Notes: a model not told the origin generated them from the letters alone. A DNA stretch of 39,085 nucleotides from Crocinitomicaceae bacterium (GCA_002691605.1 NZID01000086.1:1-39085), one strand, 5' to 3'; positions 17,406 through 23,097 are shown, counted from the first letter of the stretch. Translations and numbers: made by a program.

Positions 17406-19136
17406 TTAAAATTGAAAATAAATAAATGGTTGAAGACTAGTAGAGGCTATTTGATACATAAAAAAAACAGCCATAAAACCAATCAGCAGCTGAATTACTA
17501 CTGAAGAAGTAGCAAAAGCTTCTCTATACCGTTTTTTCCATTTTTCAGGAATAAAATGGATTAAAAATCCAATTCCAATAACTATAAATACATTTTTGTA
17601 AACACTCAATACTTCAAAAGCTAAATTCCATTGAAAGTTAAAAAACAATTGATTAAGAATCTCATTTGCAGTAAACCATTCTGAAATAATGTTATGAGAT
17701 TCATCCATTTGATCCCAAGAATTTATTGAACCGGTTCTAAACCAAATCCTTGTAAATGTCACAAAATTAAAAGTGATAATGATTCCCCAAATCTTACTGA
17801 GCCAAGTAAATTTATCTTTCCAAGGACTAATTTTTTTCCATAGTTTATAAATTACAATTCCCAATCCATTTAATCCACCCCAAAGGACAAAATTCCAACT
17901 GGCACCATGCCAAAGGCCGCCAATTAGCATAGTAAGCATAATATTAATATTAGTTAGGTACCATTTGTTAAATTTAGGGAAAAGCTCACCAAAAAGTAAT
18001 GTTAAAAATATCACAGAAAGCAAGCCAAATAACAGTGCAAGTGAACCACTTATTAAATATACAAATAGTACAATTAAAGATAAAGTAACATAACTAAATA
18101 TGGACCCTCCTCGGTTACCTCCCATAGGGATGTATAAATAGTCCTTAAGCCAAGAAGACAACGAAATATGCCACCTTTTCCAGAACTCACCACAATTATC
18201 AGCTTTGTATGGTGAGTTAAAGTTTTTAGGAAGACGAAAACCTAAAATTAATGCTATCCCAATTGCAATATCTGTGTAGCCGGAAAAATCTGCATAAACT
18301 TGAAGAGAATATCCGTATAGGGCCATTAAATTTTCAAACCCTGAAAACATTCCAGGATTATCAAATACTCTATCAACAAAGTTTACCGCTATATAATCTG
18401 CTAAAAGAAATTTTTTTAAAAGCCCGTTTAAAATCCAGAATAAAGCCGTTCCAAAATCTTTTTTACTTACACTGTAGGGTTTTTGAATTTGAGGAATAAA
18501 TTCAGATGCTCTTACTATCGGACCTGCAACAAGCTGAGGAAAAAAAGAAACATAAAAACCAAAGTCGAAAATATTATTTACCGGGGTTAATTTCTTTCTG
18601 AAAATATCAATAGAGTAAGACATAGTTTGAAATGTATAGAAAGAAATACCAACTGGTAATAATATTTGATCTACTCTAAAACTAGATCCTGTAGCCTGAT
18701 TAGTTAATAATGCAAAATGATTAATTGGTTGCCAATTAGATCCAATAATGGAGTTAAACGAATCCGCGAAGAAGTATGCGTATTTAAAATATATTAAAAT
18801 AAGTAAATTAGAAGCAATACTGAATCCGAGAAGAACCTTAGCATTTAACTCTTTTTTTGAATTATATATAGCTTTTCCTAAAAAGAAATCTAGTACGGTA
18901 GAAAACAATAATATGGAAAAGAAAAATCCACTTGTTTTAAAATAGAAGTACAAACTAACTAAAAGTAAGAAGATACTTCGTAATCTTATTTTATTATAAA
19001 TTAAGCTATATCCACTAAGCACCAAGAGAAAGAAAATCCAAAAAGTGTACTCTGTAAATATCATAGGATGTTCAGATGTGTTCAAAAAGGCATCAAAACC
19101 CCAATTAAAAAACTTATTTATTGAAAAATCACCCAC
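17406..19136 (-). CDS. MBOAT membrane-bound O-acyltransferase (AlgI-like)
   Basis: A 576-aa polytopic membrane protein with about ten hydrophobic segments. Hallmarks: QLVAGPIVRASEFIPQ, YADFSGYTDIAIGIAL, FWKRWHISLSSWLKDYLYIP (H323) and GGLWHGASWNF with the catalytic His410. AlgI-type MBOATs move acyl groups, usually acetyl, across the membrane for an extracytoplasmic SGNH partner to place on a polysaccharide or peptidoglycan. Two SGNH genes lie immediately upstream and overlap in series (8 bases with this gene), so they probably form that partner set. An extra hydrophobic stretch (about 345-385) lies between NRGG and the catalytic His. The acceptor polymer is unknown. Confidence 0.93.
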   Translation of the reverse strand: MGDFSINKFFNWGFDAFLNTSEHPMIFTEYTFWIFFLLVLSGYSLIYNKIRLRSIFLLLVSLYFYFKTSGFFFSILLFSTVLDFFLGKAIYNSKKELNAKVLLGFSIASNLLILIYFKYAYFFADSFNSIIGSNWQPINHFALLTNQATGSSFRVDQILLPVGISFYTFQTMSYSIDIFRKKLTPVNNIFDFGFYVSFFPQLVAGPIVRASEFIPQIQKPYSVSKKDFGTALFWILNGLLKKFLLADYIAVNFVDRVFDNPGMFSGFENLMALYGYSLQVYADFSGYTDIAIGIALILGFRLPKNFNSPYKADNCGEFWKRWHISLSSWLKDYLYIPMGGNRGGSIFSYVTLSLIVLFVYLISGSLALLFGLLSVIFLTLLFGELFPKFNKWYLTNINIMLTMLIGGLWHGASWNFVLWGGLNGLGIVIYKLWKKISPWKDKFTWLSKIWGIIITFNFVTFTRIWFRTGSINSWDQMDESHNIISEWFTANEILNQLFFNFQWNLAFEVLSVYKNVFIVIGIGFLIHFIPEKWKKRYREAFATSSVVIQLLIGFMAVFFMYQIASTSLQPFIYFQF

Positions 19137-20358
19137 GGTTCTTCTTATACTTTATGTAAGACTTGATTAATGCATCAAATAAAAGATCGCCAATTAAATT
19201 GTAGCCATCATAACTTAAATGAATTAAATCTTTTTTGGCTAATTGGTTTTTTTCCCACTCTTTTATGGAATTTAATCCCCCCATTATATCAAACATGTCC
19301 CATACTGCAAGATTTTTATTTTCAGCCAATTTTTTCATTTGTTGTTGTACTTCTAAAGCTCTTTCATTAGGGTACTTAACCTTATAATAACTATCATTAT
19401 TAGTGGTAAGTAAAATAGCTACATTGGGGTTTACAGATTTTATTTTATCAATAAGGGTGTCATAATTTTGGTAAAATAAATCTTTTGAAAAATCTTCTTC
19501 ATAAGCATCGTTTATTCCAATAGAAAAAATAACTAAATCAGGCTTAACCCAGCTTAACTCAGAAACCAGGTTTTCACACCTTAAATAACTTTTTACGCTC
19601 GCACCATTAACCCCAATTGAATGATAGGTGATACCATTAATATCGTTATCTAAATAAAGACCAAAAAATGAAAAATGTCCAGAATTAACGCCGATTTTTT
19701 TAATTTGAATAGCTAAAGAGTCGACATTTTCTGAAAAAGAAAAAGTAATAGATTCTTTTCCTTTTTTTGATTTTATTTCAATATTAGAATCTAATAAAAT
19801 ATTGATTTCGAAGTTATTAGAATCCTTATAAAAAAGAGTAACAGAAGAAAACGAATCATACTCTATTTCCGGATTTTCATGCCAAATATTAATAATAGAA
19901 AGGGTATCTAATAACTCGGCTCTAGCACCCATTAGTCCGAATGGGCCATTATGCGAATAAACAGAATTTCTATACCCTTTCCACCTTCCTGTATGACTAG
20001 ATTTTATAACGGGAGATCCGTTAGAGTTGATTAATCTGAAAGGAAATACAAAACCCCTTCCAGATTGATTAAAAGGCAACGCATTCTGGAAGTTGGTACG
20101 CATTTTATTTGACCAAATGTCGGCCTGAATATGAGAACCCCCAATATGAAGAATATTGACTTTTTCGTTTCCTTTCGAATATTGATTATCTAACTTATTA
20201 AAAAATATTTTCCATGATTTATGCCCATAAATTTCAAGATTATTCTTCTCTTTTTTAATAAATGGATATTGGAGATAATCAGGGCTTTCGAGTTGACCAT
20301 ACATGTTATAACAGGCAAATACGCAGGTAAAATAAAATAGAAATTGTGATTTAATCAT
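19129..20358 (-). CDS. Periplasmic SGNH hydrolase/acyltransferase (first of two paralogs)
   Basis: A 409-aa protein with a signal peptide (cleavage near YGQ, about residue 21). All SGNH blocks are present: Ser75 in ILHIGGSHIQAD, Gly in SIGVNGAS, Asn283 in FSIGINDAY, and the Asp377-His380 pair in KKDLIHLS. Between blocks I and II lies a beta-sandwich-like insert of about 85 residues. It shares WDMFDIMGGLNSIKEW with the adjacent SGNH gene (WDMYLNMGGKNSIQKW there), marking them as tandem paralogs. Next to an MBOAT gene it is probably the AlgJ/AlgX or PatB-like acetyl-transfer or esterase component. It overlaps both neighbours by 8 bases. Confidence 0.88.
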   Translation of the reverse strand: MIKSQFLFYFTCVFACYNMYGQLESPDYLQYPFIKKEKNNLEIYGHKSWKIFFNKLDNQYSKGNEKVNILHIGGSHIQADIWSNKMRTNFQNALPFNQSGRGFVFPFRLINSNGSPVIKSSHTGRWKGYRNSVYSHNGPFGLMGARAELLDTLSIINIWHENPEIEYDSFSSVTLFYKDSNNFEINILLDSNIEIKSKKGKESITFSFSENVDSLAIQIKKIGVNSGHFSFFGLYLDNDINGITYHSIGVNGASVKSYLRCENLVSELSWVKPDLVIFSIGINDAYEEDFSKDLFYQNYDTLIDKIKSVNPNVAILLTTNNDSYYKVKYPNERALEVQQQMKKLAENKNLAVWDMFDIMGGLNSIKEWEKNQLAKKDLIHLSYDGYNLIGDLLFDALIKSYIKYKKNRG

Positions 20359-21838
20359 TGTTTTTTTGATCTAAATAATATTTATAATCCCTTATAAAAT
20401 CTTCAATAAAATAATCGGCAATTTTTTGTGCTCCTCTGTTAGTGAAATGAATATAATCCCTAGCAGCTAAAGAGGGTTTTTCATTTACCCATTTTTGAAT
20501 GGAATTTTTACCTCCCATATTTAGATACATATCCCAAAAGCAAGAATTAGTCTCAAAAGCAGCGCTTTTTAGGGCCAAAATAACCTCTTCTAAAATTGGA
20601 TAAGTTATGAATTCTGTTTTTTCTTTCATAGCCATATCAGCAGGGCCAATAATTAAAAACAATGTATTAGGATTAATTTTCTTTAATTTTTGAATTTGTT
20701 TCTTAAAATACTTTCCATATTTTACAGCTCGCTCTTTAGTTTTTATATAAGGGATAGTATTACCCCCAAATTCTAAAATAAATAAGTCTGGATTCAATAT
20801 TTTTTGCATTTCACTTAAGGATTCAAAATCTACTTTTGAAAACTCAATTCCAGATGCGCCTCTTAAAGGGATATTATCGACTACTACTCCTTCTTCTCCT
20901 TCTAAGGAAATTCCATAAATTATGGGACTAGAGCTAGAACTAAACTGTAATGTCAAAGCTTTTGGCCCCTTGCTAAAATCCAATTGTTTAAGTTGAATCT
21001 CTTTGGTTTTTCTTAATGTATCTATATAAAAAATAGAGTCGTGAATAATTAATTTAAATACAGTATTTTCTGAACAACTATAATACACCTTCAAAGTTTT
21101 AAAGTTTTTACAAAGCTTATAAGATTTAGTAGGTTTTTTTATTTCAATTTCACCCTTATACAAAAAGTTCGAATCTGAACTGATGGAGTCTTTTCCTATT
21201 TTACAAAAAGAGAATATAGCTCCATATTTTTTATGTTCAACAGATTTATCTATGTAAGGGCCAAAACCAGTTTTTCTTATCCAATTTTCAGACGGTTTAT
21301 TATTCAAACTGATTTTTCTTGTTGCTGGAATCAACGCAAAAAGTCCAGGCCCATTTCCGCCAAATTCACTTTGTAGTCTCTCTCGTAGTCTTCCAGAAAT
21401 TCTATCTCCCTCAATTTGTGAATCTCCATAATGCATTATTCTCACTTTTTTATTTTTGGCATTTTCTAATTTTCTAAAAAAAGAATGTAAAACTATTGGA
21501 TTATTTCTAGGGTATTGTATATTTTTTTCAGAATATAAAATAGAATCTTCTTTTCGTTTTTCTTCAATAATTTTAAGATTATATAAACTATCTTGAATCT
21601 GCTTTTTCACTCTTTTAATGGAGTCATGATTTATAATAATAACAGATGGTTTGACAACAACTACTTCCTCGATTTCGGTTTCTTTATGGAAATCTTTTTT
21701 AGAAATAAAATTTAATTCCAGTGTTCCTAATTGAACTCCATCAAATGGAAACACCCAAATTAAGAGAAGAATCAGAAGATATAATCCACTAAAAAACAGT
21801 AATGGATAAAAGGGCTTTATTTCTTTATTATTTTTAAT
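20351..21838 (-). CDS. Membrane-anchored SGNH hydrolase/acyltransferase (second paralog)
   Basis: Numbering follows the 467-aa ORF that opens at a GTG (21754). SGNH blocks: Ser112 in MHYGDSQIEGD, Gly in LRGASGIEF, Asn332 in EFGGNTIPY and the Asp433-His436 pair in ARDYIHFT, with a beta-sandwich insert between blocks I and II. The GTG start gives no membrane signal, but the frame continues upstream for 28 sense codons to an ATT (21838). That stretch reads IKNNKEIKPFYPLL, then a Leu/Ile-rich helix ending LLLIWVFPF, a clear signal anchor. No ATG, GTG or TTG lies in it; ATT, ATA (21820) or an internal CTG would have to initiate, or there is a sequence error. I extend to 21838, overlapping the LysM gene. 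Confidence 0.75.
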   Translation of the reverse strand: MKNNKEIKPFYPLLFFSGLYLLILLLIWVFPFDGVQLGTLELNFISKKDFHKETEIEEVVVVKPSVIIINHDSIKRVKKQIQDSLYNLKIIEEKRKEDSILYSEKNIQYPRNNPIVLHSFFRKLENAKNKKVRIMHYGDSQIEGDRISGRLRERLQSEFGGNGPGLFALIPATRKISLNNKPSENWIRKTGFGPYIDKSVEHKKYGAIFSFCKIGKDSISSDSNFLYKGEIEIKKPTKSYKLCKNFKTLKVYYSCSENTVFKLIIHDSIFYIDTLRKTKEIQLKQLDFSKGPKALTLQFSSSSSPIIYGISLEGEEGVVVDNIPLRGASGIEFSKVDFESLSEMQKILNPDLFILEFGGNTIPYIKTKERAVKYGKYFKKQIQKLKKINPNTLFLIIGPADMAMKEKTEFITYPILEEVILALKSAAFETNSCFWDMYLNMGGKNSIQKWVNEKPSLAARDYIHFTNRGAQKIADYFIEDFIRDYKYYLDQKNND

Positions 21839-23097
21839 TTCTGATTAGGTTTTAGGTTTTGATAGGAATTATATTTGCAGATATCTTTTATTTTTAAATA
21901 AGGATATTTGTTTAGTATTTGCCAAAAATATTTTTCATTGCTAATCCTATGATTTAAAAGATTTTCTAGATTAGGAGAAGAGTTAGAAAAAATCAATAAT
22001 TTTTGTCCTTGATATATGATGGTATTTTTCAGATTATTCCAAGACATAATTTGACTTATACTAACATCATAATCTATGGCTATTTGCCCTAAAACATCTC
22101 CCTGTATGACCAAATGTTTTTTTTGTCCGCTAACTAAATTATCCAAGTATAGATCATTCAACATTGAGTCTTGAAAGTTCAGGATCTCATCTATTTTTTT
22201 TATGATATAGTTACCAGTACTCCTTTTTAAATAAACAGGATAGTTTTTAGGCAATACCGAATTGATTAATACTGGATTGGAATTAATTATTTTAGTAAAG
22301 TCAATTTTTTTATGCTGCGCAATTGCATCAAAGTAGATATTTTCCTTGAAAGTGTATAAATTTAATTTTGATACCGTATTTTTTTTAAAAATAGAGTTTT
22401 TGATTTCTTGCTTTTTATTTTTCTCTAACCATGCAGCTAGTTCTATGATTTTTAAAAATCTAGGGTTAATATTTTTTTTGCAGTCTTCCCATTTTTGTGA
22501 TCCTTTATTTTTAATAATGTTAGAGACATAATTTGGAGAAGTAATAAAAGCTAACATTGCCCAATTCTCATCTTTATACTGCTTCATAAGATTTTGTAAG
22601 TAAATAATGGACGCTTTAGTAGCTAGTTTTATATCAAATCTTTCATCAACATAATTATTTACTACAAGTTCTGATCTTAATGCAGTTAAATAGGCCAACC
22701 CCCAAACACCTTTTTTTGAATAAGCTCCCTCATGGTTGATTTGATAGCCTGAAGAAATCAATGGTAGATATTCAAATATAACTGGCAGCTTATTTGCAAG
22801 TATACTAGAGTCTATAAAATCAAATCTTTCGTCTTTTATTTTAAGTAAATAGTTTAAGAGATTGGTACATGAATTATAAGACTTAAGATTTTTGGGCAGG
22901 TTTAGAGGTGTATTTGTTTGGGTAGTTGGAATATTGATTTCAGAAGTATTAAAAAGAAAGTTTTCGCTTTTTTGTGATAAAATTGAAATAGGAATAAGAA
23001 AGTTCACCAAAAAAATAAAATACCAACCACCCTTTTTATTGGGTTTTATAAAATCCAAAACAATTAGAACTTGATTTTTTAAATGATCAATCTTCAA
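21817..23097 (-). CDS. LysM protein with degenerate MltD-like transglycosylase domain
   Basis: A 426-aa protein with one N-terminal membrane segment or signal (about 24-40). Residues about 105-195 align without gaps to MltD-type lytic transglycosylases (YVDERFDIKLATKASIIYLQ is the family's DERxDPxxATxAAxxYL), but the catalytic Glu is gone: the usual LPxxES is LPLISS, Ser at 115. GLWQFM has become GVWGLA, and AAYNxG has become AFITSP. One good LysM (about 328-370, IQGDVLGQIAIDYDVSISQI) and a weaker second (about 384-424) follow. It is most likely a peptidoglycan-binding pseudoenzyme, first gene of the MBOAT cluster, 72 bases downstream of lysS. Confidence 0.82.
   Translation of the reverse strand: MKIDHLKNQVLIVLDFIKPNKKGGWYFIFLVNFLIPISILSQKSENFLFNTSEINIPTTQTNTPLNLPKNLKSYNSCTNLLNYLLKIKDERFDFIDSSILANKLPVIFEYLPLISSGYQINHEGAYSKKGVWGLAYLTALRSELVVNNYVDERFDIKLATKASIIYLQNLMKQYKDENWAMLAFITSPNYVSNIIKNKGSQKWEDCKKNINPRFLKIIELAAWLEKNKKQEIKNSIFKKNTVSKLNLYTFKENIYFDAIAQHKKIDFTKIINSNPVLINSVLPKNYPVYLKRSTGNYIIKKIDEILNFQDSMLNDLYLDNLVSGQKKHLVIQGDVLGQIAIDYDVSISQIMSWNNLKNTIIYQGQKLLIFSNSSPNLENLLNHRISNEKYFWQILNKYPYLKIKDICKYNSYQNLKPNQKLKIIKK

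Follow-up and report, generated by a model that had tools for sequence, protein, structure and literature searches.

Why would genes for the acylation of an envelope polymer be kept together with a gene for a lytic transglycosylase (LT) that has lost its catalytic residue? The question is raised by four genes lying in series on the minus strand, at positions 17406-23097, of a DNA stretch from a Crocinitomicaceae bacterium (GCA_002691605.1 NZID01000086.1:1-39085; the whole stretch of 39,085 nucleotides is called the window below). We consider it rather probable that the locus is an OAP-type operon for O-acetylation and de-O-acetylation of peptidoglycan, in which a dead MltD takes the part of a non-catalytic adaptor. 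An earlier interpretation made from the DNA alone (the sequence-only reading) had seen here a previously undescribed envelope-acylation unit, and it is partly supported. The acylation unit stands, and the locus is a real and widespread one. Its supposed novelty is not supported, as the SGNH-SGNH-MBOAT part matches the OAP cluster ape1b-ape1c-pat (PMC1199599). Three of the genes are of a described kind and one is an added part, a dead LT in an acetylation operon, of which we found no description in the literature searched.

A conserved unit of four overlapping genes

In the direction of transcription, the locus begins with a pseudo-MltD (21817-23097), composed of a signal peptide, a degenerate GH23 lytic-transglycosylase domain and one or more LysM repeats (Pfam SLT 4.1e-5, LysM 6.3e-11). 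It is followed by two SGNH proteins of Ape1 type. SGNH1 (20351-21820; 489 amino acids (aa) counted from an ATA codon) has an N-terminal membrane anchor and is the proposed acyltransferase partner of the MBOAT, while SGNH2 (19129-20358; Pfam Lipase_GDSL_2 2e-15) has a signal peptide and is the proposed O-acetylesterase. The last gene (17406-19136) encodes a PatA-like MBOAT O-acyltransferase of 576 aa (Pfam MBOAT 1.3e-21). The families recovered by Pfam are those that the sequence-only reading had assigned; for SGNH1, the match to Lipase_GDSL_2 (1.5e-5) is below the cut-off. The overlapping of gene ends likewise holds for all four genes, once the start of SGNH1 is moved about 22 codons upstream, from the GTG listed by open reading frame finders (20351-21754) to the ATA.

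Our searches covered 60 relatives, 396 genomes of the phylum and 80 named loci, one genome per species (80 of 588 confirmed relatives). Because the set of loci was drawn with SGNH1 as bait, the figures are a biased estimate of prevalence. LT, SGNH1, SGNH2 and MBOAT are found together in this order in 64 of 102 Bacteroidota loci; 17 loci are without the LT, and the remaining ones are partial or cut by contig ends. Most genomes of the window's family have the four genes between lysS and a gene for a WYL regulator. Three loci (L085, L088, L091), which belong to two further families of the order, have different flanks and still keep the four genes together. Among the carriers of the full set are two cultured, non-pathogenic species, Phaeocystidibacter luteus (L149) and Draconibacterium aestuarii (L153). 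Since the order is kept in several families and orders with unrelated flanks, its conservation goes far beyond chance, and the genes do stay neighbours in Bacteroidota relatives, as had been supposed.

Five other genera of the window's family are without SGNH1 and SGNH2, and those of them that were tested are also without the cluster MBOAT; the acetylation genes thus seem to be gained or lost as a block. A candidate for a decaying cluster, in genome G010, was dropped, since its fragment sits at a contig end and is uninformative. In several Flavobacteriales (L101-L104, for example L104:11667-12320) a gene for a HAD-family hydrolase stands between SGNH2 and MBOAT. A cluster of Bacteroidota type is also present in L175, a sequence titled Candidatus Competibacteraceae (Pseudomonadota), which may be a misbinned contig or the result of a transfer.

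Two Ape1-like proteins and the neighbouring MBOAT

The MBOAT has the features of the PatA type, namely the conserved histidine motif LWHG and a C-terminal tail FIYFQF (17409-17426) of the form FxYxxF; an FWKRWH motif is present as well. The tyrosine of FxYxxF is acetylated in PatA, where it forms an acyl-shuttle motif (PMC12148441), and 80 of the 81 tabulated cluster MBOAT frames over 480 aa end in such a tail. The nearest solved relative is DltB (teichoic acid D-alanyltransferase). The protein shares 44-85% identity with cluster MBOATs from elsewhere, versus 36-40% with the two other MBOATs of its own genome, and so it stands apart from the exopolysaccharide-type paralogues; grouping with such a system would have spoken against the sequence-only reading. 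Assignment of the locus to an exopolysaccharide operon was rejected on these grounds, the two paralogues being this distant and lying on another contig, one of them by a gene for a sugar-nucleotide epimerase. On that contig (C8; L001 and L002) they are about 6 kb apart and both have FIYFQF tails; the locus there is probably devoted to exopolysaccharide.

Both SGNH proteins have the complete sets of catalytic residues attributed to them. In SGNH1 (numbered from the GTG), S112, N332, D433 and H436 are invariant in 16 relatives. In SGNH2, N283, D377 and H380 are invariant in 15 relatives and S75 is kept in at least 90%, motif I reading GGS in place of GDS. When compared with solved proteins, the two profiles match the same ones first, 4k3u followed by 8gkd and 8gld. 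The best match is 4k3u in both cases (9e-31 for SGNH1; 8e-30 for SGNH2, with 8gkd at 4.5e-26). The search tool names 4k3u a peptidoglycan O-acetylesterase, and we take it to be Ape1 of Neisseria meningitidis; 8gkd and 8gld are labelled Campylobacter jejuni Ape1 by the fold search. The AlphaFold model of SGNH1 (pLDDT 84) fits 8gld (6e-24, TMt 0.79) along nearly its whole length, including the beta-sandwich insert, and the next family after Ape1 reaches only 1.4e-8. Ape1 is thus the nearest known protein for both SGNH1 and SGNH2 (for the latter by profile only), and the beta-rich insert ascribed to the SGNH proteins from the sequence is real. The kinship with AlgI/AlgJ/AlgX-type systems is not supported: AlgX and AlgJ matched neither SGNH protein by sequence in the PDB searches and were not among the top 50 folds for SGNH1. 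Nearness to Ape1 points instead to acylation of peptidoglycan rather than exopolysaccharide.

Could the unit nevertheless acylate some other envelope polymer (exopolysaccharide, lipopolysaccharide or a surface glycan), and the LysM protein do no more than anchor the machine at the wall? MBOAT-SGNH pairs act on such polymers elsewhere (AlgI/J/X and Wss, discussed in PMC12148441), the Ape1-like assignments are homology only, and those SGNH1 families that are without SGNH2 could serve other polymers. We regard this as improbable, since peptidoglycan is the substrate of Ape1, LT and LysM are both peptidoglycan modules, no recurrent genes for glycosyltransferases or polymer export stand beside the cluster, and the genome has its own separate MBOATs, including the one by the epimerase gene.

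For a unit acting on peptidoglycan, we suggest that SGNH1 is responsible for transfer and SGNH2 for removal of acetyl groups, on the basis of their N-termini, their association with the MBOAT and block II. Firstly, SGNH1 has a conserved uncleaved N-terminal anchor, which in relatives is situated roughly 100 residues ahead of motif I, as opposed to the signal-peptide-like N-terminus of SGNH2. Secondly, pairs of SGNH1 and MBOAT without SGNH2 occur (L131, L143, L210, L213, L214, L215), and no genome with an SGNH2-MBOAT pair and without SGNH1 was seen among the loci and genomes surveyed with SGNH1 as bait. Elsewhere SGNH2 lies on the opposite strand (L226, L229), or a distance of about 19 kb separates SGNH1 from the SGNH2-MBOAT pair (G190); in two of the loci without SGNH2 (L213, L214), SGNH1 is followed by two tandem MBOAT genes. 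Thirdly, block II, which in SGNH2 comes about 170 residues after motif I, reads NGA in Ape1 and SGNH2 and RG[AS], with an invariant Arg, in SGNH1. Motifs I and VII are GDSQ and DYIH in SGNH1 and GGSH and DLIH in SGNH2, compared with GDS(H/F) and Dx(V/T)H in Ape1; the catalytic letters are kept and their neighbours differ.

That SGNH1 and SGNH2 are both esterases, while the MBOAT itself, or a third SGNH protein encoded elsewhere, performs the transfer to the wall, has in our opinion a similarly low probability. Both proteins are Ape1-like, both keep the block II Gly, which is replaced by Ser or Asn in PatB (PMC12148441), and the 2005 paper on OAP clusters named both as Ape esterases (PMC1199599). 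The shuttle tail of the MBOAT, however, is expected to need an SGNH acceptor, neither protein gave a PatB-like match, and it is SGNH1, with its block II changed from NGA to RG[AS], that accompanies the MBOAT constantly and is anchored in the membrane. Identification of either SGNH protein as PatB was itself rejected, as no PatB was recognised among the PDB sequence matches and both retain the Gly.

The degenerate transglycosylase and its junction with SGNH1

The sequence-only reading took the transglycosylase fold to be dead, and alignments confirm this: where MltD has LPVIESAY, the window's protein has LPLISSGY, and Ser115 (codon at 22753-22755) occupies the site of the catalytic Glu. The AlphaFold model (pLDDT 79, overall arrangement uncertain) has MltD as its best match (8rhf, 1.6e-12). 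The loci supplied 78 LT proteins, of which 58 are without the catalytic Glu and 20 have it. A single branch separates the two groups, with support 100/100 and in all 200 bootstrap trees, so that independent losses of the Glu were rejected in favour of one change. In all 20 Glu-plus proteins the GLWQ motif retains its Gln and the AYNAG motif its Tyr, Asn and Gly; in the 58 others Glu, Gln and Asn are lost or variable. The Glu-minus LT adjoins SGNH1 in 56 of 58 cases by script and in L140 and L144, which the script missed due to reading-frame problems, by inspection. This adjacency is partly built in by the choice of bait; as an independent check, in each of three genomes (G044, G050, G054) the LTs outside the cluster are normal and the one degenerate SLT is inside it. 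No canonical MltD was found in four genomes of the same genus (G000, G001, G004, G006), each of which has one weak SLT match besides the dead LT, and the small genomes of these bacteria seem to encode few lytic transglycosylases.

Directly upstream of SGNH1, 15 Glu-plus mltD genes were found, mostly in a parA-parB-DUF5683-mltD neighbourhood. Their position suggests that the dead LT arose from an mltD already adjoining acetylation genes. Loci in which the acetylation genes directly follow parA-parB-DUF5683-mltD, with catalytic residues kept, are L110, L124, L125, L131, L143, L156, L159, L162, L165 and L170.

What might the dead protein be good for? Judged by analogy, it probably serves as a docking part or glycan-binding adaptor. 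In Neisseria, Ape1 is more active in complex with the LT LtgA, and catalytic mutation of LtgA causes no defect in shape (PMC7083599). Further, in one locus without the dead LT (L090:8107-9900), two LysM domains are fused to the C-terminus of SGNH2; the adjoining MBOAT is a frame of 803 aa. Both the LtgA-Ape1 complex and this fusion fit a non-catalytic adaptor. The earlier idea that the LysM pseudo-enzyme guides acylation along the glycan is plausible, and it keeps the rank of a proposal.

Several observations weigh against an acetylation operon equipped with such an adaptor. The block II Gly is present in SGNH1 and SGNH2 alike, so neither bears the known transferase mark of PatB. The dead LT is the fastest-changing protein of the unit, its within-genus identity being 43-48% versus 66-75% for SGNH1 and 82-86% for the MBOAT; this is a weak fit for a tight scaffold and we take it as a caution. 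Finally, the LT is missing in about a fifth of loci, and an active-looking MltD is in its place in 15. Fast divergence, absence from some clusters and an active-looking MltD at the same place in other lineages, in the parA-parB-DUF5683 context, would also suit an LT that is a functionless relic of active MltD, held only by operon structure. We find this explanation quite unlikely, given one ancient loss of the active site after which frames of about 400-550 aa with LysM stayed open across several orders. In addition, G-W and D-x-R positions are kept while the catalytic residues vary freely, and the LT stayed though its flanks changed.

The end of the dead LT gene has its own peculiarity. The frame of SGNH1 is open upstream of the GTG at 21754 and there encodes the membrane anchor IKPFYPLLFFSGLYLLILLLIWVFPFDG (21737-21820), which is shared by relatives. 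Extended to 21820, SGNH1 overlaps the LT stop by four bases, ATAA (21817-21820), in which TAA ends the LT gene and AUA would be the start of SGNH1. ATAA is present at this junction throughout the window's family (17 of 17 loci, namely the window and L035-L050), and none of the 17 has ATG, GTG or TTG ahead of the anchor. A single base change would give ATG, which stands there in 0 of 17. Among 30 other loci in the same phase, the overlap is ATGA in 22 and GTGA in 3; L103 has a similar junction, ATAG. Codons after ATAA vary synonymously (Pro as CCC, CCA or CCT), which indicates that the SGNH1 frame is translated from ATAA or earlier. An altered genetic code was rejected as a cause, for TGA serves as stop in the same loci. 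Translation of two genes is coupled by four-base overlaps of the ATGA type, which are especially frequent where the genes encode subunits of one complex (PMC10666635). Reinitiation at unusual codons as treated in PMC4648390 is a eukaryotic phenomenon and is given no weight here. From the pattern of the junction, we infer that SGNH1 probably starts by AUA initiation after termination of the dead-LT gene. A rival view is that -1 frameshifting where the LT gene ends yields SGNH1 as a fusion to the LT. In its favour, the two frames stand in the right relation and a few SGNH1-frame codons are open upstream of the overlap. We think it unlikely, since ATGA or GTGA occupies this place in other lineages and a slippery heptamer is not conserved, agt-cca-TAA or aat-cca-TAA standing there in several members.

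A model of the unit and its place among known systems

A possible course of events in this putative operon is as follows. The MBOAT would take acetyl from acetyl-CoA in the cytoplasm and load it on the Tyr of the FxYxxF tail, a step shown for PatA. Held at the inner membrane next to the MBOAT, SGNH1 with its Ape1 fold would accept the acetyl on its Ser and hand it to the C6-OH of MurNAc in peptidoglycan, which is the job of PatB in Neisseria and Campylobacter. SGNH2, presumably a soluble periplasmic Ape1-like esterase, would strip acetyl groups off. The dead MltD, having kept its fold and LysM, might bind glycan strands together with one or both SGNH proteins, and it would set the sites of acetyl addition or removal. 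The 4-nt overlap, with its AUA start in the window's family, would tie synthesis of SGNH1 to that of the dead LT. A bolder version, in which the dead MltD is across the phylum an obligatory targeting subunit kept in fixed ratio with SGNH1 by stop/start coupling (through AUA in one family), is a tentative idea that we are inclined to doubt.

The closest described relatives are the OAP clusters of Weadge, Pfeffer and Clarke (2005, PMC1199599), in all of which except that of Zymomonas the order is ape1b, ape1c, pat; Bacteroides and Porphyromonas supply the ape1b-ape1c pairs listed there. An OAP cluster is marked by a gene for an MBOAT transferase beside one or more Ape esterase-like genes, and this is what the present locus has. 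Its SGNH1-SGNH2-MBOAT part repeats the order ape1b-ape1c-pat within the same phylum. The ape1b product, like SGNH1, has a beta-rich segment after motif I and, in P. gingivalis, a possible membrane anchor. Order, phylum and relation to Ape1, compared by the text of that paper, are the basis for a putative orthology to the OAP genes of Bacteroides and Porphyromonas. There are differences as well: no LysM/LT gene is described in the clusters of PMC1199599, SGNH2 has the insert whereas Ape1c is said to lack a segment of roughly 100 aa after motif I (PMC1199599), and the motif letters are GDSQ and GGSH, with DxIH.

The patA-patB-ape1 system of Neisseria and Campylobacter has in common with the locus an MBOAT with C-terminal FxYxxF, two SGNH proteins and the Ape1 fold. 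Here, however, no PatB homologue was recognised, both SGNH proteins are Ape1-like, a dead LT is added and the gene order is different. LtgA-Ape1 of N. meningitidis (PMC7083599) is a precedent for an LT working in complex with an O-acetylesterase, a complex that for our locus is a proposal; LtgA is active, whereas the present LT is of MltD type, catalytically dead and encoded in the acetylation operon. From MltD itself (GH23 plus LysM, Pseudomonas aeruginosa 8rhe/8rhf) the protein has the fold and the LysM module, and it has lost the catalytic Glu, the Gln of GLWQ and the Asn of AYNAG. DipM and similar dead LytM autolysin regulators (PMC10336132) are comparable in that a non-catalytic wall-hydrolase fold controls other wall enzymes. 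Their fold is unrelated, and DipM is described there as targeting autolysins, unlike the O-acetylation enzymes proposed as targets here.

In the literature searched, work on the mechanism of wall O-acetylation in Gram-negative bacteria concerns Neisseria and Campylobacter. Bacteroidota such as B. fragilis have heavily acetylated walls, and their described clusters are without PatB; peptidoglycan O-acetylation was measured as 69.4% in B. fragilis and 27.0% in B. thetaiotaomicron (PMC1199599). For this phylum, we can now propose SGNH1 as the likely transferase, SGNH2 as the likely esterase and a dead enzyme as their partner. The locus would represent an evolutionarily old natural case of an LT made a non-enzymatic part of a system that by its chemistry blocks such enzymes. 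At the AUA junction, nature provides a test of whether stop and start can be coupled when a normal start codon is absent. If such coupling is true, the conserved AUA start would keep SGNH1 dependent on the dead LT.

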